In this document: one piece after another, positions 36,541-47,784 of the stretch
How the letters are laid out: every line of letters begins with the position of its first letter
Position numbering within the stretch: the stretch's first letter is position 1
Source of the DNA: Winogradskyella thalassocola
Lineage (GTDB): Bacteria; Bacteroidota; Bacteroidia; Flavobacteriales; Flavobacteriaceae
DNA: 64,000 nucleotides
Direction of reading: 5' to 3'
Assembly (NCBI RefSeq): GCF_900099995.1
Contig: NZ_FNCZ01000001.1
Location: forward strand, 1,240,001 to 1,304,000
Position numbers and translations under genes: made by a program
The notes under the pieces: generated by a model
The model's database searches: none
The model's input: only the letters and a program-made list of their open reading frames with translations
Told to the model about the DNA's origin: nothing

Positions 36541-37821
36541 TTAATCTTTGCTAGGATATTTGGCTTTGATATCATCCAAGCACAAATTATGAATACTTCC
36601 TATATGAGAGTGTTCTTTTCCTAAATCGGGCTTGTACGTTCCTGCTTGTACTTGACTTCCGATTTTCTGATACGCTTCTCTAAAGCTCATGCCTTCAACT
36701 ACTAAATTATTAATACTATCTACTGTAAATAAGTATTGGTATTTCTCATCAGTGAGGTCAATATCCTTCACGATGATTTGTTGAATGGAATAATTAAAGA
36801 TGTCTAAAATATCTTTTACATCTTCAAAAGCATTGATGATATTTTCTTTCAATAATTGAAAATCTCTGTGGTAACCACTTGGTAAATTATTGGTGATTAA
36901 TAACATTTCAGAATGTAAGGCCTGAATTTTATTACACTTACCTCGAATCAATTCAAAGACATCAGGATTCTTTTTGTGTGGCATAATGCTACTTCCTGTG
37001 GTTAATTCATCTGGAAATGTCACAAAGCCAAAATTCTGACTCATATACAAGCAAATATCCATAGCAAAACGTGCCATGGTATTACATAATCCGCCTAAAG
37101 CACTAGCGATAGCACGTTCACTTTTTCCTCGACTTAATTGCGCAGCAACCACGTTATATTTTAAGGTTGAAAAACCTAATTCTTTAGTGGTAATGTCTCG
37201 GTCTATTGGAAAAGAGCTTCCGTAACCAGCAGCTGAACCTAATGGGTTTTGGTCTGCGATTTTCGATACTGCATTTAAGACGTAAACGTCATCAATTAAC
37301 AATTCCGCATAAGCAGAAAACCATAAGCCAAAAGATGATGGCATGGCGACTTGCAAATGTGTGTAGCCAGGTAATAACTGAGTTTTATGAGTTTCGGCTA
37401 AACCTAAAAGCGTATCAAAAAATGTTTTTGTTTTAGAATTTATAATTTCAAGATTCTCTTTATAGTAGAGTTGAAGGGCTACTAAAACTTGATCATTTCT
37501 AGAACGTGCCGTGTGGATTTTCTTTCCGACGTCGCCTAAGGTTTTTGTGAGCTCATGTTCAATTTTAGAATGGACATCTTCAAACGAGTCTTCAATTATA
37601 AAGGTACCATCTTCAATTGATTCCGCTAAAACTTTTAATCCTGATTTCAATTGTTCTAACTCTTCCGAAGTTATTATTCCGATAGATTCTAACATCACAG
37701 CATGCGCTCGCGACGCTTCTACATCATATTTTGCAATATGCATATCGATTTCTCTATCGTTTCCGACGGTAAATAATTCTATTTTTTTATCTATTGAAAA
37801 TCCTTTGTCCCACAATTTCAT
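36541..37821 (-). CDS. argH: Argininosuccinate lyase
   Basis: 426 residues, a little shorter than E. coli ArgH (457). It splits argininosuccinate into arginine and fumarate, the last step of the pathway. The superfamily signature G-S-S-I-M-P-H-K-K-N-P-D and the S-R-N-D-Q motif (H-T-A-R-S-R-N-D-Q-V) are intact. It is the last gene of the arg operon, separated from argE by a large inverted repeat. Confidence 0.94.
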   Translation of the reverse strand: MKLWDKGFSIDKKIELFTVGNDREIDMHIAKYDVEASRAHAVMLESIGIITSEELEQLKSGLKVLAESIEDGTFIIEDSFEDVHSKIEHELTKTLGDVGKKIHTARSRNDQVLVALQLYYKENLEIINSKTKTFFDTLLGLAETHKTQLLPGYTHLQVAMPSSFGLWFSAYAELLIDDVYVLNAVSKIADQNPLGSAAGYGSSFPIDRDITTKELGFSTLKYNVVAAQLSRGKSERAIASALGGLCNTMARFAMDICLYMSQNFGFVTFPDELTTGSSIMPHKKNPDVFELIRGKCNKIQALHSEMLLITNNLPSGYHRDFQLLKENIINAFEDVKDILDIFNYSIQQIIVKDIDLTDEKYQYLFTVDSINNLVVEGMSFREAYQKIGSQVQAGTYKPDLGKEHSHIGSIHNLCLDDIKAKYPSKD

Positions 37822-37909: not shown

Positions 37910-38971
37910 TTATAATACTTTCTCTAACAATTTAATATACAAATCTACACCTTCTTCAATTTCAGCGATATAAATAAACTCATCTGCTGTGTGCGAACGT
38001 GTACTGTCACCTGGTCCTAATTTTAAAGATGGACAAGTTAAAACTGCTTGATCGGATAGGGTTGGTGAACCATAAGTTTCTCTTCCTATTTCAATACCAG
38101 CTTCAACTAATTCATGATTCAAGGGAATCGAGGATGAATTTAATCGTAAGCTACGTGCCACAATACTAGTGCACGGTGATTTTTTAGCTAAGATATCAGC
38201 TATTTCCTGATTACTGTATTTATCATTAACACGGACATCAATGACTAAATCAACTTCAGCAGGAATGGCATTATGTTGTCTGCCTGCGTTGATTTGAGTT
38301 ACGGTCATTTTTACATCACCTAAAACAGGTGAGTTTCGTGCAAACTGATAATCTTTAAACCATTTTAAAACCTCAATAGTATTGTAAATTGAATTATCCT
38401 TATTTGGGTGAGCGGCATGGCCAGCTGTGCCTTTTACTTTGGCATCAAAAACGACCAAACCTTTTTCGGCAATAGCTAAATTCATTAAAGTAGGTTCGCC
38501 AACAATGGCGACATCAATTTTTGGAATGATGCTTAACATGCTATTGAGTCCGTTTGGGCCACTACTTTCTTCTTCAGCAGAAGCGACGATAACTAAATTA
38601 TAGTTAAGGTCTTTTTTGTCGTAAAAATAAGTGAAGGTTGCAATTAAAGACACTAAGCAACCACCAGCATCATTGCTGCCTAATCCGTATAATTTACCAT
38701 CTTCAACAATAGCTTTTAATGGGTTTTTGGTGTAACCATTATTAGGTTTTACGGTATCGTGATGCGAGTTTAATAATAGAGTTGGTTTGCTATCATCAAA
38801 ATATTTGTTAGTTGCCCATATGTTATGATGATCTCTTTTAAAAGGAATTTTATGTGATTTAAACCAATCTTCTATAAGCAATGCTGTGTTGTCTTCTTCT
38901 GACGAAAATGATTCTGTTTCTATAAGTTGCTTTAATAAAGCAATGGCTTGTGTGGTTAGTTTTTCAATCAT
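37910..38971 (-). CDS. argE: M20 family N-acyl-amino-acid deacylase of arginine synthesis
   Basis: 353 residues, dinuclear zinc M20 peptidase fold. Metal ligands are in L-N-S-H-H-D-T-V, G-S-N-D-A-G-G and the acidic A-E-E-E-S-S-G; V-G-E-P-T supplies a further ligand. It removes the acyl group late in arginine synthesis. Because the operon has an N-acyl-ornithine carbamoyltransferase and no ordinary argF, its substrate is probably N-acyl-citrulline rather than N-acetylornithine. It overlaps argB by 4 bp. Confidence 0.85.
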   Translation of the reverse strand: MIEKLTTQAIALLKQLIETESFSSEEDNTALLIEDWFKSHKIPFKRDHHNIWATNKYFDDSKPTLLLNSHHDTVKPNNGYTKNPLKAIVEDGKLYGLGSNDAGGCLVSLIATFTYFYDKKDLNYNLVIVASAEEESSGPNGLNSMLSIIPKIDVAIVGEPTLMNLAIAEKGLVVFDAKVKGTAGHAAHPNKDNSIYNTIEVLKWFKDYQFARNSPVLGDVKMTVTQINAGRQHNAIPAEVDLVIDVRVNDKYSNQEIADILAKKSPCTSIVARSLRLNSSSIPLNHELVEAGIEIGRETYGSPTLSDQAVLTCPSLKLGPGDSTRSHTADEFIYIAEIEEGVDLYIKLLEKVL

Positions 38972-39744
38972 TGGGTTATAGTTGTGTGTCTATTGTTGGT
39001 ATTGAAAAGCATGTCTGATTTTCCAATACAAACTTTTTGAACGTTTTGATTTATGGCATGAAAGCAATTATCTAATTTAGGTATCATGCCTTCAAATATG
39101 ATTTTGTTTGCTTTTAATGTTTTGTAGCTTTCTGTGTTGATGTTTTCAATTACAGAATCGTCATTGTTTACATCTTCTAAAACGCCATTTTTTTCAAAAC
39201 AATAATAAAGCTCTGTGTTGTAAATTGAAGCAAAGCCAATGGCTAATTCTGAAGCAATGGTATCTGCATTTGTGTTTAATAATTGACCGTTTTTGTCGTG
39301 TGTAATAGCGCAAAAAACAGGTGTAATACTGTTCTTTAAAAGTATTTCTAAGGTTTCAGTGTTCACTTGTTTTACATCGCCAGCAAATCCGTAATCAATG
39401 GGTTTTGTTGGTCGTTTATCTGAAACAATGGTGTTACCATCTGCACCAGAAAACCCAATAGCATTACAGGTGTTGGCTTGCAACTGCGCAACGATATTCT
39501 TATTGATTTTTCCAGCATAAACCATGGTGATAATATCTAAAGTATCCGCGTCTGTAATACGTCTGCCTTCATTCATTTGCACAGGAATATTCATTTGAGT
39601 CGCTAATTTAGTAGCTAATTTCCCTCCTCCATGGACTAAAATTTTAGGGCCTTTTAGAGTTGCAAAATCTGTAATGAACGCTGCTAGTGCGTCTTCATTA
39701 TCGATAATATTTCCTCCTATTTTTATGACTTTTAGTATTTTCAT
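38968..39744 (-). CDS. argB: N-acetylglutamate kinase (or N-acylglutamate kinase)
   Basis: 258 residues of the amino-acid kinase fold: K-I-G-G-N-I (7-12), V-H-G-G-G-K-L-A (about 37-44), G-F-S-G-A-D-G-N near 95-102, and the C-terminal phosphate-binding segment G-M-I-P-K-L-D. It phosphorylates the N-acylated glutamate. Its length matches the short, arginine-insensitive ArgB type, which lacks the N-terminal helix used for feedback control, as far as can be judged. Confidence 0.92.
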   Translation of the reverse strand: MKILKVIKIGGNIIDNEDALAAFITDFATLKGPKILVHGGGKLATKLATQMNIPVQMNEGRRITDADTLDIITMVYAGKINKNIVAQLQANTCNAIGFSGADGNTIVSDKRPTKPIDYGFAGDVKQVNTETLEILLKNSITPVFCAITHDKNGQLLNTNADTIASELAIGFASIYNTELYYCFEKNGVLEDVNNDDSVIENINTESYKTLKANKIIFEGMIPKLDNCFHAINQNVQKVCIGKSDMLFNTNNRHTTITQ

Positions 39745-39829: not shown

Positions 39830-40765
39830 TTATAAATCCTCCAAAATCTGTTTCAAAACAATCTGCGCAGCATACGTTCTATTATTCGCTTGTTTAATCA
39901 CCACAGATTGTTCACTATCTAAAACGGCATCTTCCACCACAACATTTCGTCTTACAGGTAAACAATGCATAAATTTGGCATCACCTAATTTGGCTTTCGT
40001 TATCATCCAATTTTCATCTTGGTTTAGGATTTTACCGTAGTCTTTATAGTTACTCCAGTTTTTGACATAAACAAAATCGGCATCTTTTAAAGCGTCTACT
40101 TGGTTGTGGTTTATAGGCGTGTCTTTGGTGATGGCTTCGCTTAATTCATAACCTTCAGGATGCGTTATTGTGAAATCAACTTCTAAATCTTGCATCATTT
40201 CTACAAACGAATTCGCAACCGCTTGTGGTAATGCTTTGGGATGTGGCGCCCAAGATAACACGACTTTAGGCTTTGCTTTTTCGGTTAATTCAGAAATTGT
40301 AATGGCATCTGCCAAAGCTTGTAAAGGATGTGCTGTAGCGCTTTCCATATTTACAATCGGAACAGTCGCATATTTTTTAAAGTTATTGAGGATATATTCG
40401 GATTCATCCTTCGCTTTGTTTTGTAGCGTTGGAAATGCTCTCACAGCAATAATATCTGCATATTGCGAAATAACTTGTGCGGCTTCTTTGATATGTTCAG
40501 ATGAATTACCGTTCATCACTGTGCCGTCTTCAAATTCAATATTCCAAGCGTCATTAACGTTTAAAATCATCACTTCCATGCCTAGGTTTTTTGCTGCTTT
40601 TTCAGTGCTTAATCGTGTTCTTAAACTCGAATTAAAAAAGAGCATGACTAAAGTTTTATGTTTCCCTAAGTCTTGAAATCCAAAAGGATTCATCTTCAAT
40701 AAGATGGCTTCCTTTATGGTTTGTGACAAGTTGGGCAAATCTTTTATTTGGGTGTAATTTTTCAT
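39830..40765 (-). CDS. argF': N-acylornithine carbamoyltransferase (acetyl- or succinyl-)
   Basis: 311 residues from the ATG at 40763-40765. It carbamoylates N-acylornithine to N-acylcitrulline. The carbamoyl-phosphate motif S-S-L-R-T-R is at 46-51 and H-C-L-P-V-R-R near 255. It lines up with Bacteroides-type SOTCase and Xanthomonas AOTCase rather than with OTCase (W-A-P-H-P-K-A-L-P-Q-A-V, T-H-P-E-G-Y-E-L). In G-N-S-S-E-H (86-91) the specificity position is Ser89, where AOTCase has Glu and SOTCase has Pro. A longer reading from 40795 would start inside a palindrome and is not preferred. Confidence 0.88.
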   Translation of the reverse strand: MKNYTQIKDLPNLSQTIKEAILLKMNPFGFQDLGKHKTLVMLFFNSSLRTRLSTEKAAKNLGMEVMILNVNDAWNIEFEDGTVMNGNSSEHIKEAAQVISQYADIIAVRAFPTLQNKAKDESEYILNNFKKYATVPIVNMESATAHPLQALADAITISELTEKAKPKVVLSWAPHPKALPQAVANSFVEMMQDLEVDFTITHPEGYELSEAITKDTPINHNQVDALKDADFVYVKNWSNYKDYGKILNQDENWMITKAKLGDAKFMHCLPVRRNVVVEDAVLDSEQSVVIKQANNRTYAAQIVLKQILEDL

Positions 40766-40771
40766 ATTCAT

Positions 40772-40789
40772 TTCCCACGAAAGTGGGAA
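40772..40789 (-). repeat. Family B hairpin 6 bp before argF'
   Basis: On the minus strand TTCCCAC-TTTC-GTGGGAA, a perfect 7-bp stem, preceded by GAGA and ending 6 bp before the argF' start codon. Confidence 0.75.
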
Positions 40790-40832
40790 TCTCATTAATT
40801 AAACTTTAATTCTAAGGTTTTTAAATTAATCC

Positions 40833-41966
40833 TTATTTCTTTTTTAATTCATTTTCCAAGGCTTCAAAAAATACATCAATGTGTTTTTTCTGAATCGTTA
40901 AAGGTGGAAGAATTCTTATCAAATTAGGATTTGTAGCACTTCCAGTAAAAATATGATGATCGAAAATTAGCTTTTTTCTCAATTCTGCAATCGGGAAATC
41001 GAATTCTAATCCTATCATTAAACCACGACCTTTGATTGATTTTAAGTTTGGTAATCCTTTTGCTTTTTCTTGAAAATAATCAGCAATGTTCTTCGCATTT
41101 TGCATCAGCTTTTCGTCTTCTAAAACATCTAAAACAGAAAGCGTTGCAGCGCATGCCAAATGGTTGCCACCAAAGGTGGTGCCTAATAAACCAAAAGAGG
41201 CTTCAATTGAAGGATGGATTAAAATCCCTCCAACCGGAAAACCATTTCCCATGCCTTTGGCAATAGAAATAATATCTGGTGTGATATTATGTTTTTGAAA
41301 TGCGAAAAAGTCGCCAGTTCTGCCAAATCCAGATTGTACTTCGTCTGCAATAAATGCTGTGTTGTATTGTTTGCAAAGTTGTTCTAGTCCTTGATAGAAT
41401 TCCGTTGTACTTTGGTCCAAGCCACCAACACCTTGGATAAATTCTACGATGACAGCGCAAGTTTCGTTTTGTTTTAAAATGGTTTCAACCGTGTCTAAGT
41501 CACCTAATTCTACAAAATCAACTTTTTGTTGCGCATTAATTGGTGCAACAATTTTAGGATTGTCAGTTGCGGCAACTGCAGCAGAAGTTCTGCCATGAAA
41601 CGAGTTTTTAAAAGCTAAAACTTTTTGTTTGCCATTGTGGAATGATGCTAGTTTTAAAGCATTTTCATTGGCTTCTGCTCCGGAATTACACAAAAATAAT
41701 TGGTAATCTTTACAGCCAGAAAGCGCTTCTAATTTATCAGCTAATTCAACTTGTAATGGATTTTGAATCGCATTACTATAGAAACCCAATTTTTCAACCT
41801 GATTAGAAATAGCTGATACATATTTTGGATGTGAATGTCCAATAGAAATCACAGCATGGCCTCCATAAAGATCTAAGTATTCAACATTTTTATCATCATA
41901 AACGTAAATATCTTTGGCGCTTACAGGAGTGATGTCGAATAATGGGTATACATTAAATAAACTCAT
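40833..41966 (-). CDS. argD: N-acetylornithine aminotransferase
   Basis: 377 residues, class III PLP aminotransferase. It converts N-acylglutamate semialdehyde to N-acylornithine with glutamate as amino donor. The PLP lysine is K237 in I-S-I-A-K-G-M-G-N-G; N-S-G-A-E-A-N (94-100) and I-A-D-E-V-Q-S-G-F-G-R-T-G (206-218) are family signatures. It overlaps proC by 4 bp. Confidence 0.93.
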   Translation of the reverse strand: MSLFNVYPLFDITPVSAKDIYVYDDKNVEYLDLYGGHAVISIGHSHPKYVSAISNQVEKLGFYSNAIQNPLQVELADKLEALSGCKDYQLFLCNSGAEANENALKLASFHNGKQKVLAFKNSFHGRTSAAVAATDNPKIVAPINAQQKVDFVELGDLDTVETILKQNETCAVIVEFIQGVGGLDQSTTEFYQGLEQLCKQYNTAFIADEVQSGFGRTGDFFAFQKHNITPDIISIAKGMGNGFPVGGILIHPSIEASFGLLGTTFGGNHLACAATLSVLDVLEDEKLMQNAKNIADYFQEKAKGLPNLKSIKGRGLMIGLEFDFPIAELRKKLIFDHHIFTGSATNPNLIRILPPLTIQKKHIDVFFEALENELKKK

Positions 41967-42763
41967 ATCTGCTCTTTTTTAATGTTACTAATTTTATTGA
42001 ACGAAGCGACCATACCTTGAATTAAAGACGAACTTAATCCTTTGTGCTCCATTTCGTTTAAACCTTCAATAGTACAGCCTTTTGGTGTGGTAACGCGGTC
42101 TATTTCTTCTTCCGGATGATGCCCATTTGTTATTAATAAATTGGCAGCTCCTTCACTAGTGTACATGGCTAATTCTTGTGCTTCTTTAGCATCAAAACCT
42201 AATTGAATAGCAGCCTGTGTTGTCGCTCTTATTAATCGCATCCAAAATGCAATACCACTCGCGCAAACCACGGTTGCGGCTTGCATTTGAGATTCTGGAA
42301 TAGCCAAGGTGTGACCTAATCTATTAAAAATAGCTTCAGCAATAGGTATGCGTTTTTTGCCGTTTTCATTACTACACATGCAAGTCATGGATTTACCAAC
42401 CGCAATGGCTGTATTTGGCATAGCTCTGATAATAAATTGATCTGTACCGACAATAGCTTCAATTTTTGGAATTAAAAATCCTGTGATTGTGGAAATTAAA
42501 ACGTGTTTTTCGGTTAAATGTGGTTTAATGTCGTTCAGAATCGTCTCAAAATGTGTTGGTTGAACGGCGAAGATTAAAATATCAGATTGTTTAACAGCTT
42601 CAATATTATCGGTTGTTAATGTTACATTCTTATAACCATCTAAATCTTGAATACCGCTCAAGTTTCGTTTGGTTAAGTATAGTGTGGTAATGGCGTTGTT
42701 GGTGATTAATCCCTTTGCGATGGACTTTCCTAAATTGCCTGTTCCTATGATTGCTATTTTCAT
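41963..42763 (-). CDS. proC: Pyrroline-5-carboxylate reductase
   Basis: 266 residues. It reduces pyrroline-5-carboxylate to proline. The N-terminal Rossmann motif is I-A-I-I-G-T-G-N-L-G-K-S-I; R-A-M-P-N-T-A and the C-terminal T-P-K-G-C-T-I-E-G-L are ProC signatures. Its presence inside the arginine operon ties proline and arginine synthesis to the same control. No proA or proB lies in the window. Confidence 0.92.
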   Translation of the reverse strand: MKIAIIGTGNLGKSIAKGLITNNAITTLYLTKRNLSGIQDLDGYKNVTLTTDNIEAVKQSDILIFAVQPTHFETILNDIKPHLTEKHVLISTITGFLIPKIEAIVGTDQFIIRAMPNTAIAVGKSMTCMCSNENGKKRIPIAEAIFNRLGHTLAIPESQMQAATVVCASGIAFWMRLIRATTQAAIQLGFDAKEAQELAMYTSEGAANLLITNGHHPEEEIDRVTTPKGCTIEGLNEMEHKGLSSSLIQGMVASFNKISNIKKEQI

Positions 42764-42974: not shown

Positions 42975-43952
42975 TTAAAAATAATTAGCCTTTAATTTTA
43001 AGCCTTCAGTTTCCTCATATCCAAAAATTAAATTCATGTTTTGAATGGCTTGTCCTGATGCTCCTTTTAATAAGTTATCGATGATACTCGTGACTAATAA
43101 TTTATCGTTGTGTTTATGTAAATGAAGGATGCATTTATTGGTGTTGACCACTTGTTTTAAATGAATGTCCTCATCGGAAACAAACGTAAATGCAGCGTCC
43201 TTATAAAATTCTGTATATAATTGTTTTGCCTCTTCTAAACTGCCTTCATATTTCGTGTAAAGTGTGGCAAAAATGCCTCTCGAAAAATTCCCACGATTGG
43301 GCATAAAGTTGATATCGGACTTAAAATCTGATTGTAATTGATTTACAGTTTGATTAATTTCTCCTAAATGCTGATGCGTAAAAGCTTTATAATGAGAAAA
43401 GTTATTATCTCTCCATGTAAAATGTGTGGTTGTAGATAATGAAGTTCCTGCACCTGTGGCGCCTGTCACGGCATTAATATGAACATCGTCTTGTAACGTT
43501 TCGGCTTTAGCTAAAGGCAATACGGCTAATTGAATCGCGGTTGCAAAACATCCAGGATTAGCAATATAATTCGCTTTTTTTATGGCTTCTTTGTTTAATT
43601 CAGGTAAACCATAAACAAACGTTTTGCCATCTAAATTTGACTCTGCGTTTAGTCTGAAATCATTACTTAAGTCAATGATTTTAGTCGCGTCGGAAAAGCT
43701 GTTATTTTCTAAAAACGCTTTTGAATTGCCATGACCTAAACATAAAAACAGGACATCAACTTCTGCATTTATGGCATCTGAAAAGACTAAATCTGTAGAG
43801 CCTAATAAATCTTGATGTACCTTACTAACTTTGTTTCCAGCGTTAGAGGTACTGTAAATAAAATCGATTTCTACTTTAGAGTGATGAATCAATAATCTAA
43901 TTAATTCTCCTGCTGTGTAACCAGCGCCCCCAATGATACCTGCTTTGATCAT
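42975..43952 (-). CDS. argC: N-acetyl-gamma-glutamyl-phosphate reductase
   Basis: 325 residues. It reduces N-acylglutamyl phosphate to the semialdehyde with NADPH. N-terminal G-I-I-G-G-A-G-Y-T-A-G-E-L is the nucleotide-binding loop and Cys135 in A-N-P-G-C-F-A-T the catalytic thiol. T-G-A-T-G-A-G and H-Q-H-L-G-E are further ArgC motifs. It overlaps argG by 4 bp. Confidence 0.94.
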   Translation of the reverse strand: MIKAGIIGGAGYTAGELIRLLIHHSKVEIDFIYSTSNAGNKVSKVHQDLLGSTDLVFSDAINAEVDVLFLCLGHGNSKAFLENNSFSDATKIIDLSNDFRLNAESNLDGKTFVYGLPELNKEAIKKANYIANPGCFATAIQLAVLPLAKAETLQDDVHINAVTGATGAGTSLSTTTHFTWRDNNFSHYKAFTHQHLGEINQTVNQLQSDFKSDINFMPNRGNFSRGIFATLYTKYEGSLEEAKQLYTEFYKDAAFTFVSDEDIHLKQVVNTNKCILHLHKHNDKLLVTSIIDNLLKGASGQAIQNMNLIFGYEETEGLKLKANYF

Positions 43953-45136
43953 GATTCTGAATTTACTTGCTGATAAATCTTATTCTGATTGCCAAATATT
44001 TTAATAAATCCTTTAGCTTCATCTGCGGTCCAGCCTTTATTTTCTTCACCATAACTTCCGAATTTAGCATTCATTAAATCGTGTTTAGATTTGATGCCTT
44101 CTAAAGAAAAATGATAAGGCTTAAGTGTTACGATCACGTCACCTGAAACTTTATCTTGACTACTTTGTAAAAAGGCTTCCATATCTCGCATTACAGGATC
44201 TAAATATTGACCTTCGTGTAGGTGCATGCCATAGAAATTAGACATATAATCTTTATGTTGCAGTTGCCATTTCGTCAACGTGTGTTTTTCAAGTAAATGA
44301 TGTGCTTTGATGATAATTAAAGCCGCTGCGGCTTCAAAACCAACACGACCTTTAATACCAACAATCGTATCTCCAACATGTATATCGCGACCAATGGCAT
44401 AAGCCGAAGCTAAATTATTTAAGACTTCAATATTAACTTCAGGATTATTTTCAACACCATTTAAAGCAACTAATTCACCTTTAGAAAATGTTAAGACTAC
44501 TTTTTCAGGATCTGAATGTTTTAATTGTGAAGGGTAAGCTGAATCTGGTAATGGTTTTTCAGATGTTAAAGTTTCTTCTCCTCCAACACTCGTGCCCCAA
44601 AGTCCTTTGTTTACTGAGTATTTAGCTTTGTTCCAGGACATATCGATTCCGTTTTCAATAAGGTAATCAATTTCTTGTTGTCTACTTAAACTTCCATCTC
44701 GTATAGGTGTAATGATTTCAATTTCTGGTGCTATAGTCTGAAAAATCATATCAAAACGCACTTGATCGTTTCCTGCTCCAGTACTTCCGTGTGCAATATA
44801 TTTAGCGTCTATGCTTTTGGCATATTGTACAATTTCAATGGCCTGAATAATACGTTCTGCACTAACAGATAAAGGGTACGTGTTATTCTTTAAAACATTT
44901 CCAAAGATTAGATACTTAATTACTTTATCATAATACGATGCAATAGCATCAATGTTCTTATATGTTGAAACGCCCATTTTATAAGCATTACTTTCAATAG
45001 TTTTAATTTCTTCTTGAGTAAATCCACCGGTATTCACACTAACCGCATGAACATCATATCCTGCTTTACTTAAACTTACTGCGCAGTAAGAGGTGTCTAA
45101 TCCTCCGCTATATGCTATAACTAATTTTTTACTCAT
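43949..45136 (-). CDS. argG: Argininosuccinate synthase
   Basis: 395 residues. It joins citrulline and aspartate at ATP cost. The ATP pyrophosphatase motif A-Y-S-G-G-L-D-T-S is at 9-17; G-S-T-G-A-G-N-D-Q-V-R-F and S-V-N-K-G-L-W-G-T-S are typical. It overlaps the upstream acetyltransferase gene by 8 bp. Confidence 0.94.
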   Translation of the reverse strand: MSKKLVIAYSGGLDTSYCAVSLSKAGYDVHAVSVNTGGFTQEEIKTIESNAYKMGVSTYKNIDAIASYYDKVIKYLIFGNVLKNNTYPLSVSAERIIQAIEIVQYAKSIDAKYIAHGSTGAGNDQVRFDMIFQTIAPEIEIITPIRDGSLSRQQEIDYLIENGIDMSWNKAKYSVNKGLWGTSVGGEETLTSEKPLPDSAYPSQLKHSDPEKVVLTFSKGELVALNGVENNPEVNIEVLNNLASAYAIGRDIHVGDTIVGIKGRVGFEAAAALIIIKAHHLLEKHTLTKWQLQHKDYMSNFYGMHLHEGQYLDPVMRDMEAFLQSSQDKVSGDVIVTLKPYHFSLEGIKSKHDLMNAKFGSYGEENKGWTADEAKGFIKIFGNQNKIYQQVNSES

Positions 45137-45758
45137 CTTTTTTGTCTTTTTTTAAAAACATATTCTGTTTTATCAATTTTAATCGTGTCCATACTTTCTT
45201 GTCGTAAGGACGTTCTTTGGGTTTTGATGTTTCGGCTTTAGCAGGATCATATAACATCCCTGTACACAAGCACATTTTTTGCTCTGTACGTGTTAAAACA
45301 TCGAAATTTTTACATGTTTGGCAGCCTTTCCAGAAAGATTGGTCGTCTGTTAATTCTGAAAATGTAACAGGTTTATAACCTAATTCGCTATTCATTTTCA
45401 TAACCGCTAAACCTGTGGTAATACTAAAAACTTTTGAATCTGGAAACTTGGTTCTTGAATGTTCAAAAATGACTTTCTTGATCTGTTTGGCAAGGCCTAG
45501 ATTTCTAAAATCAGGATGAACGATTAAGCCAGAATTTGCCACAAATTTACCATGACTCCATGCTTCTATATAACAGAACCCAGCAAATTGATCTCCTTCT
45601 AAAGCAATAACAGCATTACCATTTTCCATTTTGGTGATGATGTATTCTGGTTGCCGTTTTGCAATACCTGTACCTCTAACTTTAGCAGCTTCGGCAATGG
45701 TTTCGCAAATAAGTTCTGCGTAAATGCTATGTGATTTATCAGCAATAACAATTTTCAT
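45129..45758 (-). CDS. GNAT acetyltransferase heading the arg operon, probable N-acylglutamate synthase
   Basis: 209 residues. The N-terminal 130 residues form a GNAT domain with acetyl-CoA loop R-N-L-G-L-A (85-90) and an H-P-D-F-R strand. The tail has four cysteines, C146 and C149 (G-C-Q-T-C) and C163 and C165 (M-C-L-C), in a metal-site-like layout, then a basic end. As the first gene of an operon that otherwise lacks argA or argJ, it is the best candidate for making N-acetyl- (or N-succinyl-) glutamate. That role is inferred from position, since GNAT substrates cannot be read from sequence. It lies behind an Arg-rich leader ORF. Confidence 0.75.
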   Translation of the reverse strand: MKIVIADKSHSIYAELICETIAEAAKVRGTGIAKRQPEYIITKMENGNAVIALEGDQFAGFCYIEAWSHGKFVANSGLIVHPDFRNLGLAKQIKKVIFEHSRTKFPDSKVFSITTGLAVMKMNSELGYKPVTFSELTDDQSFWKGCQTCKNFDVLTRTEQKMCLCTGMLYDPAKAETSKPKERPYDKKVWTRLKLIKQNMFLKKDKKDE

Positions 45759-45947
45759 TGTGATTGTTTTTTATAGATTATAAAATGTTTGATTTTCTTT
45801 TGAATGAAGAACTGGACACACCTAAGTTCCTAATATAAATTGTACCCTTACGGGCGACGACTTAAAATATGGCGTACAGAAACCAGCTTAGTAGTTGGGG
45901 CTGCTATAGTTGAAAAAAGAGATAAATGTGATGAATTGTTCAATGTG

Positions 45948-45999
45948 AAAAAAAAATTAAAATTGATTAACTAAATGGTTTAAAGTAGATTCCATTAGC
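45948..45999 (-). terminator. Candidate attenuator terminator of the arg operon
   Basis: On the minus strand GCTAATGG (45992-45999) can pair with CCATTTAGT (45970-45978) with one bulged base, around a 13-base loop. Nine T residues follow at 45948-45956 after an AT-rich spacer of 13 bases. The stem is weak and the T run is not immediate, so this is tentative. Its 5' arm overlaps the end and stop codon of the leader ORF. Confidence 0.4.
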
Positions 46000-46060
46000 G
46001 ACGTCGCTTGTTTAATAACAAGCGTGTGGGTCTTTCAATTCTATTTCTTTGACTTAACAT
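45995..46060 (-). CDS. Arginine-rich leader peptide of the arg operon
   Basis: ATG at 46058-46060 to TAA at 45995-45997, 21 codons. Seven are Arg (positions 5, 7, 10, 13, 19, 20, 21) and the peptide ends Lys-Arg-Arg-Arg-stop. It lies 236 bp upstream of the first arg gene, on the same strand, in an otherwise gene-free leader. An 8-bp perfect stem (CGCTTGTT/AACAAGCG, 46005-46024) lies within its last third and a T9 tract follows 38 bp after the stop. This is the classic layout of ribosome-mediated attenuation: scarce charged tRNA-Arg would stall the ribosome on the CGA-CGT-CGC run. It was found by eye and no homologue is claimed. The rest of the gap 45759-46191 holds AT-rich sequence and small GC hairpins (CCCGTAAGGG). 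Confidence 0.75.
   Translation of the reverse strand: MLSQRNRIERPTRLLLNKRRR
46005..46024 (-). promoter_or_regulatory. Hairpin inside the arg leader ORF
   Basis: Perfect 8-bp stem with a 4-base loop covering leader codons 13 to 19. A ribosome translating the Arg codons would melt it. It is adjacent to the 12-bp palindrome AGCGACGTCGCT, which contains the three terminal Arg codons. Confidence 0.6.
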
Positions 46061-46191
46061 AATGTAAATTTAAAATTAATATTTAAATATTGACTTAATA
46101 TGTGGGCTTTTATGAAATTTTTATCAAATTCATAATTCTTTTAAAAAATACTTTAAATAATTCAAATTGAGTGGCTTCAAAGCGCCTTTTA

Positions 46192-47784
46192 CTAAAGTAT
46201 ATAATCTGTACTCACAAAGTTTGAAGCTCTAGAATCTAATAAATCTTTTAAAATAGCATTGTTATAATCGTTGTCTTTAGAGGCTACAAATGTTCTAATA
46301 GAAAATGAACGCAAAGCATCATGGACACTCAGTGTAGCAACTGCCGAATCTTTACGACCTGTAAACGGGTACACGTCTGGTCCGCGTTGACATGAGCTAT
46401 TTAAATTCACACGACAAACCAAATTCACAAGAGTATCAATTAAAGGCGCTAATGTTTTTACATCATTTCCAAATAAACTGACTTGTTGCCCGTAATTAGA
46501 TTCTGCCATATCATCTAAGGGCTCTTCAATATCTGAAAACGGAACAACAGGAATTACAGGTCCAAATTGTTCTTCTTGAAAGACGCGCATATCTTTTGTA
46601 ACAGGATATAAAACCGCCGGAAAAATGTAGTTTTCAGTGGTGTCTCCACCTTTTTCATTAATAACTTTGGCGCCTTTTTCTGTAGCGTCGTCAATTAGAT
46701 CTTGAATGTAATCTGGTTTATCTGGTTCTGGTAATGGAGTTAATTTAGCTCCATCTTCCCAAGGGTTTCCAAATTTTAAAGCATCGACTTTAGCTGAAAA
46801 CCGTTTATTGAATTCTTCAACAATGTCTTCATGTACATATAAAACTTTTAAAGCCGTACAACGTTGACCATTAAAAGAAGTGGTTCCTGCAATACATTCA
46901 TCTATGGCTAAATCTAAATCGGCATCTGGTAACACAATTGCTGGGTTTTTAGCTTCAAGACCTAAAACTAAACGCAGTCTGTTACTTTTTGGATGCTGAT
47001 TTTGTAAAGCATTTGCTGATTTACTATTTCCGATTAAAGCCAAAACATCAACTTTACCAGATTGCATAATTGGAGCCGCTACGGTTCTTCCTCTTCCGTA
47101 TATAATATTTACAACTCCTTTTGGAAAGCTATCTCTAAATGCTTCTAGTAATGGTGAAATTAATAATACACCATGTTTTGCGGGTTTAAAAATGGCTGTA
47201 TTTCCCATGATTAATGCCGGAATCAATAAAGCAAAAGTTTCATTTAAAGGGTAGTTATAAGGACCTAGACATAAAACAACACCTAAAGGACCTCTTCTAA
47301 TGTGTGCGTTAACGCCAGAACTTTTTACAAATTTAGCGCTATCGCGATCCATTTGTTTGTAGTCTTCAATGGTATCGTAAATGTATTCTACCGTTCTATC
47401 AAATTCCTTTTCAGAATCTGGTAGGGTTTTACCAATTTCCCACATGAGAAGTTTTACGATTTCCTCACGCTTCGTTTTCATTTGCACTACAAATTTTTCC
47501 ATGCAGGCAATTCTGTCCACAACTTTCATTGTTGGCCATAAACCTTGTCCTTTGCTGTATGCGGAAACCGCGGCATCTAAAGCTTTTATGGCTTCTTTTT
47601 TTCCTAAAGTCGGAATAGTTCCAAGTAACGTAGGTTTATAATCTTCAGTGGAAGAAATTGTAGAATAGACTTTAGAAGTTTCTCCACGCCAAGGTATCAG
47701 TGCTCCGTCTACTAAATAGGTGTTCTGGTCGACTAAATTTTTAATTTGAAACTGTTCTGGAATATTCACAAATGCTGAAGTCAT
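46192..47784 (-). CDS. gapN: NADP-dependent non-phosphorylating glyceraldehyde-3-phosphate dehydrogenase
   Basis: 530 residues of the aldehyde dehydrogenase superfamily. It oxidises glyceraldehyde-3-phosphate to 3-phosphoglycerate, giving NADPH without ATP. The catalytic Cys is in [10 protein letters not shown] and the general-base Glu in [15 protein letters not shown] is typical of GapN-type enzymes. The C-terminal [16 protein letters not shown] segment is also GapN-like. It is 80 bp after ilvA on the same strand. It could be read with the ilv operon, whose reductoisomerase uses NADPH, or from its own promoter. Confidence 0.85.

Follow-up and report, generated by a model that had tools for sequence, protein, structure and literature searches.

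How does a flavobacterium that apparently lacks ArgR adjust arginine synthesis to its supply of arginine? The question is raised by the arginine operon of Winogradskyella thalassocola, contained in the 64 000-nucleotide stretch of DNA analysed here (the window), which is preceded by a short arginine-rich open reading frame. The original prediction, made from the letters of the window, was that this frame encodes a leader peptide that attenuates the operon. A search for ArgR (PF01316) returned no match in the organism's own genome and none in 100 genomes of the family, this one included; the same search found the protein in 9 of 14 control genomes, Bacteroides included. Comparison with relatives leads us to propose a two-stage arginine sensor that works by ribosome-read attenuation, a reading to which we assign a probability of roughly 0.7. 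Ribosomes would probably sense arginine shortage through the leaders and turn the pathway on, thereby replacing the ArgR repressor.

The operon had been taken to begin with argG-argC-proC. In fact a GNAT acetyltransferase gene comes first and argG only after it, succeeded on the same strand by argC, a proC-like gene, argD, the N-acetylornithine carbamoyltransferase gene, argB, an argE-like gene and argH (Table 1). In Lacinutrix neustonica (L124:3001-3630) the frame of the GNAT gene is broken and the two-leader region upstream is intact, and in the tiny genomes (about 0.6 Mb) of the family coded f16 the GNAT domain sits within open frames of about 590–650 codons, as if fused with another protein; argG would fit by length. 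No match to the GNAT gene was obtained in 12 of 25 genomes of the window's genus (own included), several of them 98–99% complete, and repeated loss of the arginine pathway within the genus is possible. A leader for ilvD was also looked for in the window, with nothing clear emerging.

Table 1. Positions of the leader elements and operon genes within the window, in order of transcription.
Feature	Positions	Strand	Remarks
Predicted -7 box, TAAATTTA (TAnnTTTG type)	46065..46072	-	4 nt ahead of the ORF1 ATG
ORF1, first leader peptide, MLSQRNRIERPTRLLLNKRRR-stop	45995..46060	-	orthologues in relatives
P1 5' arm	46035..46043	-	ORF1 codons 6–9
8-bp hairpin in ORF1, CGCTTGTT(ATTA)AACAAGCG	46005..46024	-	nested within P1; variable among relatives
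P1 3' arm	45958..45966	-	
T9 tract	45948..45956	-	one base past P1, 4 nt ahead of the ORF2 start
ORF2, second leader peptide, TTG start, MNNSSHLSLFSTIAAPTTKLVSVRHILSRRP-stop	45848..45943	-	
H1 hairpin, CGCCC-GTAA-GGGTA	45843..45856	-	last Arg and Pro codons; ORF2 stop in loop
H2 hairpin, GAACT-TA-GG-TGTGT-CC-AGTTC	45809..45829	-	the leader's most conserved nucleotides
GNAT acetyltransferase	45129..45758	-	gene 1 of the arg operon
argG, argininosuccinate synthase	43949..45136	-	best matches slightly under curated cut-offs
argC	42975..43952	-	
proC-like reductase	41963..42763	-	
argD family transaminase	40833..41966	-	under curated cut-off
N-acetylornithine carbamoyltransferase	39830..40795	-	at curated cut-off
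argB	38968..39744	-	
ArgE/DapE family deacylase	37910..38971	-	under curated cut-off
argH	36541..37821	-	

The first leader, ORF1, agrees in its dimensions with the original prediction, having 21 codons, seven of them for Arg, a C-terminal KRRR before the stop, and 236 nt between it and the GNAT start (45758); the 8-bp hairpin reported inside it was likewise located. Its Arg richness does exceed chance, as had been argued. Among 6329 ATG-started ORFs of 15–30 codons from 2 Mb of simulated sequence (first-order Markov, matched in composition to these upstream regions), none contained at least seven Arg in at most 21 residues, and RR within the last eight residues occurred in 140 (2.2%), versus 49 of 52 ORF1s from relatives.

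The GNAT gene was found in 18 of 40 related genomes, and within the genus ORF1 is present in all 14 examined genomes that have the gene (13, counting the window's own, plus L021). A single scan supplied 80 loci from named genomes, almost all titled Flavobacteriaceae and the nearest being Winogradskyella; one locus titled as a Rhodobacteraceae MAG (L118), standing among flavobacterial rows, was taken as misbinned. ORF1 occurs in 54 of the 80, so that the frame proposed from one genome does recur in other Flavobacteriaceae; 52 came from a search that required three or more Arg, and L081 and L088 were added by inspection. A filter-free search by promoter position placed an ORF at the ORF1 site in 44 of the 80 loci, every one with at least three Arg. 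In a separate set of 30 loci that were read, L030 lacked any leader with three or more Arg. Arg makes up 22.1% of residues across the 52 ORF1s, a list pre-filtered at three or more Arg, versus 2.8% across 15 genes of the window. The Arg codons in the second halves of the ORF1s (n = 210) are CGC 128, CGT 38, CGA 15, AGA 15, AGG 11 and CGG 3; in the window genes, CGC accounts for 11 of 168 Arg codons. Because all six codons are used, Arg is retained in ORF1 with varied spelling, which is the pattern of conservation that a leader sensing arginine had been expected to leave.

Where transcription of this leader begins can be predicted from the promoter. In the promoter and LEADERLESSNESS analysis, TAnnTTT[GA] was sought within 30 nt upstream of leaders, and the leaders were placed on a tree of the GNAT proteins. 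The window has the order TAAATTTA-CATT-ATG. The -7 box is present in 44 of 52 ORF1s and lies exactly 4 nt before the start codon in 34 of the 44; among 18 one-leader loci, 12 have it 7 nt ahead of their only leader. In Flavobacterium psychrophilum the -7 box occupies -12 to -5 relative to the start site, according to the available text of PMC9723704. Since the box ends 4 nt upstream in 34 of 44 cases, the ORF1 start codon would be at +1 and ORF1 is predicted to be leaderless. The predicted start (a prediction only) is thus the ORF1 start codon itself rather than a site downstream of 45995, which would have told against the original prediction. On the GNAT tree, built from 79 of the 80 loci plus the window, 4 changes suffice to explain which loci have two leaders, versus 21 with shuffled labels. 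L124 is missing from the tree because its GNAT frame is broken, and three loci were left unlabelled (L081 and L088, with two leaders, and L053, with one). The two-leader state tracks the phylogeny, and this quick tree implies that it was gained or lost more than once.

The first codons of ORF1 are predicted to take part in a long-range pairing, P1, whose 3' arm ends just ahead of the T9 tract. The 86-nt segment of the window that P1 closes folds at -18.7 kcal/mol (z -4.1), a value equalled by none of 200 shuffles. In relatives the pairing is retained with differing sequences (AATATAGAGT/ACTCTATATT, AAATAAAAACG/CGTTTTTATTT, AAAATAATATACGT/ACGTATATTATTTT and ATTGTTGT/ACAACAAT). Across 47 sequences, a set that includes the mis-anchored L066, each locus's own arms pair at a mean of -11.06 kcal/mol versus -7.75 (sd 0.35) for permuted arms, and none of 10 000 permutations was as low. 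The own 3' arm ranks best in just 8 of 47 (median rank 8), because the P1 arms are A-U rich and common to relatives. ORF1 modules (47, with L066 left out and L088 in its place) have a mean fold z of -2.6, with none above zero. At least six T in eight follow P1 in 41 of 47 loci versus 22% of background windows; T clustering within the tract (6.64) shows no excess over shuffles of the same T-rich 36 nt (6.42). P1, itself rich in A-U pairs, closes a branched, terminator-like fold. The terminator originally proposed here was a different one, a weak stem at 45970–45999 that overlaps the ORF1 stop and is followed by T9. That stem is kept in the four closest relatives (L001, L003, L005 and L006), but it ends 13 nt short of T9, and as a terminator it is displaced by P1, the stem that abuts T9 and has cross-species support. 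We regard it as an inner branch of the larger P1 fold, in a segment where distant loci pair differently.

The original prediction knew of a single leader, and overlooked ORF2 and the hairpins H1 and H2. There are two leaders, and ORF2 is the commoner. Winogradskyella tangerina (L053) lacks ORF1, probably by natural loss, and retains ORF2-H1-H2. ORF2 of the window has 31 codons and ends RRP-stop within H1, whose outermost pair in the window is C-A. In 13 loci of the genus ORF2 is 96 nt long with a TTG, GTG or ATG start, except that the stop is displaced in L005 and L006. Two-leader loci mostly start ORF2 with TTG or GTG. In one-leader loci (e.g. Zobellia, Flagellimonas, Maribacter, Arenibacter and Robiginitalea) the sole leader is ORF2, with an ATG start, as in MKGQRHISNTLSNLAPVRPFSRRRRP.

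H1 takes the form CGCCC-GUAA-GGGUG in relatives, and CGCAC-GUAA-GUGCG in three Christiangramia loci. About 10–17 nt past it lies H2, a stem with a bulge of 1–2 bases, topped by GG[UGNGU]CC, which is nearly invariant in an alignment made from loci that hold the H2 motif GGTGNGTCC. That motif is present in 75 of the 80 loci, of which 62 form six uninterrupted pairs in the H2 stem (mean 5.57 versus 3.50, sd 0.20, with permuted arms). Among the five loci without it, L062 and L063 hold a paired variant (GA/TC) and L086 looks degenerate by eye; L031, L043 and L047, from the separate set of 30, also lack it. When these five and two loci without a regular H1 are excluded from the 80, 63 of the remaining 73 have Arg at codon -2 of ORF2 (CGT 47, CGC 16), a codon that the 5-bp H1 stem does not include, and 37 of the 73 have it at codon -3.

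Folding of single sequences is unremarkable here. H1-H2 of the window gave z -1.57 when folded alone (14 of 200 shuffles equal), H2 alone -1.23 (26 of 200), a piece of L122 cut inside H1 0.27, and the whole 342-nt leader -1.43 (6 of 100 shuffles equal), so that the support for H1-H2 is comparative. No textbook terminator was found in the window's leader by a simple scan. Of the 80 loci, 36 have a terminator-like hairpin, with about seven expected, and in 34 that hairpin is H1; H2 fits no terminator. A search for strong long-range pairing that could act as an antiterminator of H1 found none, and z for pairing within ORF2 or toward the GNAT start was never stronger than -4.3. A search of the own genome for further copies of H2 gave one hit with no mismatch and a second with two mismatches; a reversed control pattern also gave one and one, and the idea of other copies was dropped.

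How widely H1-H2 is distributed was assessed with R1, a covariance model of the two hairpins made from 49 sequences. Of 249 family genomes, 166 contain an R1 match and four of these contain two, and the best 30 matches, 30 of 30, directly precede a GNAT gene. Thirteen weak or second matches were opened and GNAT was present in two; five of the 13 were their genome's only match, so at least five of the 166 look like chance. Because the weak matches opened were mostly without GNAT, we estimate the true number of genomes at about 160. Twenty of the 83 unmatched genomes were tested, and 18 of these also lack the GNAT gene. As judged from these sequence comparisons, H1-H2 is a more widespread core than ORF1. 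Outside the family, inspection by eye suggests that GNAT is preceded in L015, L175, L176 and L177 by an Arg-run leader together with two hairpins, one H1-like and the other with a UNNGU-type loop, and in L018 by an Arg-run leader with an H1-like hairpin and no clear H2. The genus coded g17, probably Flavobacterium, was sampled at ten loci. Seven of them (L161, L163, L165 and L167–L170) have another conserved structured leader before GNAT, poor in Arg, with a TCTCCCGA hairpin followed by ATGCTAT..ATAG and a peptide end near SPEVRML; L166 has an RRRFRP leader whose hairpins resemble H1 and H2, and neither leader type was seen in L162 and L164. Rfam gave no match to a known RNA family, T-boxes and riboswitches included, at E values up to 1 across window positions 44900–47000.

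A leader ORF carrying codons for the end-product ahead of the operon for its synthesis, the hallmark of an attenuator, is what we found. The original prediction is partly supported: an Arg leader with attenuator-like anatomy does precede the arg operon, in genomes where no ArgR was found, but neither the weak-stem terminator nor the single leader is borne out. Comparison among relatives supports both reading frames, their Arg codons, the pairing of P1, H1 and H2, the position ahead of the operon and the absence of ArgR from the genomes searched; from these we infer where transcription starts, that ribosomes pause, in which direction the operon responds and that termination is the output, as follows. 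Transcription is predicted to begin at or beside the ORF1 start codon. When arginine is plentiful, ribosomes would finish ORF1 and depart, and its first codons would pair with the segment before the T-tract to form P1. The P1 fold would then either end transcription or hide the ORF2 start. When Arg-tRNA is scarce, a ribosome stuck on the Arg codons of ORF1 would hold the P1 fold open, so that for ORF1 the ribosome itself would prevent P1. In the second stage, a ribosome paused at the final CGY codons of ORF2 would occupy the 5' arm of H1; H1 would therefore not form and, we propose, the operon would be expressed. H2 would be a conserved accessory to this second stage. Counting against the scheme are the lack of a textbook terminator after ORF2, the unexceptional folding of the window's H1-H2 alone, the failure to find an antiterminator for H1, the A-U-rich arms of P1 and the unclustered T-tract, the mostly TTG or GTG starts of ORF2 in two-leader loci, and the Arg-poor leaders of g17.

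Much of this anatomy might also serve a cascade at the level of translation, in which P1 buries the ORF2 start and ORF2-H1-H2 acts on the translation or stability of GNAT-argG. The layout of the window suits such a scheme, with the ORF2 start following the P1 3' arm at 14 nt and the T-tract at 4 nt, as does the absence after ORF2 of the textbook terminators that follow the organism's own his and pheA leaders. However, the T-tract behind P1 (at least six T of eight in 41 of 47 loci) suits a terminator, and in the window 50 nt separate the end of H2 from the GNAT start, a region for which no strong conserved pairing was found. We consider this scheme possible, if unlikely. Attenuation through Rho, with leader translation that is finished or absent exposing the RNA, would also account for the lack of a textbook intrinsic terminator downstream of ORF2. 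Conserved hairpins such as H1 and H2 are, however, not expected at a Rho site, and we find this explanation improbable even though it has a precedent with consecutive Arg codons in speF orf34 (PMC6386406, as far as its available text goes).

The remaining alternatives shift the sensing away from the position of the ribosome on Arg codons. The nascent Arg-rich peptide might stall its own ribosome at Arg-Pro-stop and so sense free arginine, and Pro is indeed very common ahead of the ORF2 stop. TnaC, which senses tryptophan, has fixed C-terminal residues and a fixed stop position. The leaders here behave differently. The ORF2 stop is displaced with H1 retained in L006, L070, L078, L080 and L085, the Pro is replaced in L099, L107 and L123 (RRT) and in L013 (RRR), and ORF1 ends variously in RRR, RRH, RRF, RRSF and others. 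Because the stop moves in several loci and H1 stays, it is probably the RNA that dictates the Pro-stop end, the Pro codon being explicable by the CCC of H1, and an arrest peptide seems to us the least credible of these schemes. Direct sensing by the RNA, with H1-H2 as an arginine aptamer or protein site and the ORFs as by-products of its sequence, would fit the H2 top, which is nearly invariant among the aligned GGTGNGTCC-holding loci and lies outside both ORFs. But codon -2 of ORF2 stays Arg though its third base varies, ORF1 is Arg-rich without any H1-H2, and Rfam offered no match; we judge it very improbable, if slightly less so than the arrest peptide. A bolder variant keeps the ribosome as reader and makes H1-H2 a novel regulatory RNA module peculiar to the arginine leaders of flavobacteria, in which H2 would be a second sensor, read by a partner other than the stalled ribosome (arginine, tRNA, a protein or ribosomal RNA), and the leaderless peptide would have been added ahead of it as an extra gate in a large group. 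This we regard as doubtful.

The proposed two-stage attenuator has relatives close at hand. In the own genome, a His leader (MTLIQLHHHFHIIAQAR-stop) before hisG (L198, G000:C17) and an aromatic leader (MNMNISRAYYNWFYFFFS-stop) before the prephenate dehydratase gene (L199, G000:C4) are each followed by a textbook terminator, so leader attenuators are at home in this genome, and the His leader offers a ready-made positive control. Like the his, phe and trp attenuators, the arg leader has a short ORF, rich in codons for the amino acid that the operon makes, downstream of a predicted promoter and ahead of the first gene, and has RNA folds that the position of a ribosome would change. Unlike them it has tandem leaders, a first ORF predicted to be leaderless with a long-range P1 starting from its first codons, a second ORF without a textbook terminator, and the extra conserved hairpin H2. 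The fungal arginine attenuator peptide, a eukaryotic arrest peptide of fixed sequence upstream on an arginine-pathway gene, also senses arginine; the arg leader differs in that its peptide sequence is not fixed.

The attenuation principle and leaders with arginine codons are already known. According to the available text of each report, consecutive Arg codons of the leader ORF sense arginine in Salmonella speF orf34 (PMC6386406), and Arg codons of a leader ORF sense arginine limitation in Staphylococcus aureus rbfL (PMC13009471). Unlike the arg leader, speF controls ornithine decarboxylase, has a 516-nt 5' UTR and brings in Rho and RNase G, and rbfL uses rare AGA/AGG codons and covers the start site of a biofilm regulator, repressing its translation. 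Two short ORFs in one leader are reported for Salmonella mgtCBR (PMC3641672) and for ermB (PMC8274638), where they respond to different signals, whereas both ORFs of the arg leader carry codons for the same amino acid. Within the same family, the F. psychrophilum study gives clues for leader attenuators, with pheA and hisG among its conserved elements, and proposes attenuation for such 5' regions; its available text does not name the arginine operon (PMC9723704). Among the matches listed, the openly readable literature held no arginine leader in Bacteroidota, and the accessible portions of PMC2965389, PMC8632094 and PMC7366714 name none for this phylum.

Two leaders for one amino acid, one of them predicted to be leaderless, in a bacterial group with very little Shine-Dalgarno pairing (see PMC9723704), offer a good test of readout by ribosome position, and the nearly invariant loop of H2 poses a directly testable question. 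The comparison also defines a conserved RNA element that has no Rfam match. For the biology of the family, the leaders suggest a means of controlling arginine synthesis in a large group in which no ArgR was found, and arginine would be added to the amino acids apparently under leader-peptide control in Bacteroidota.
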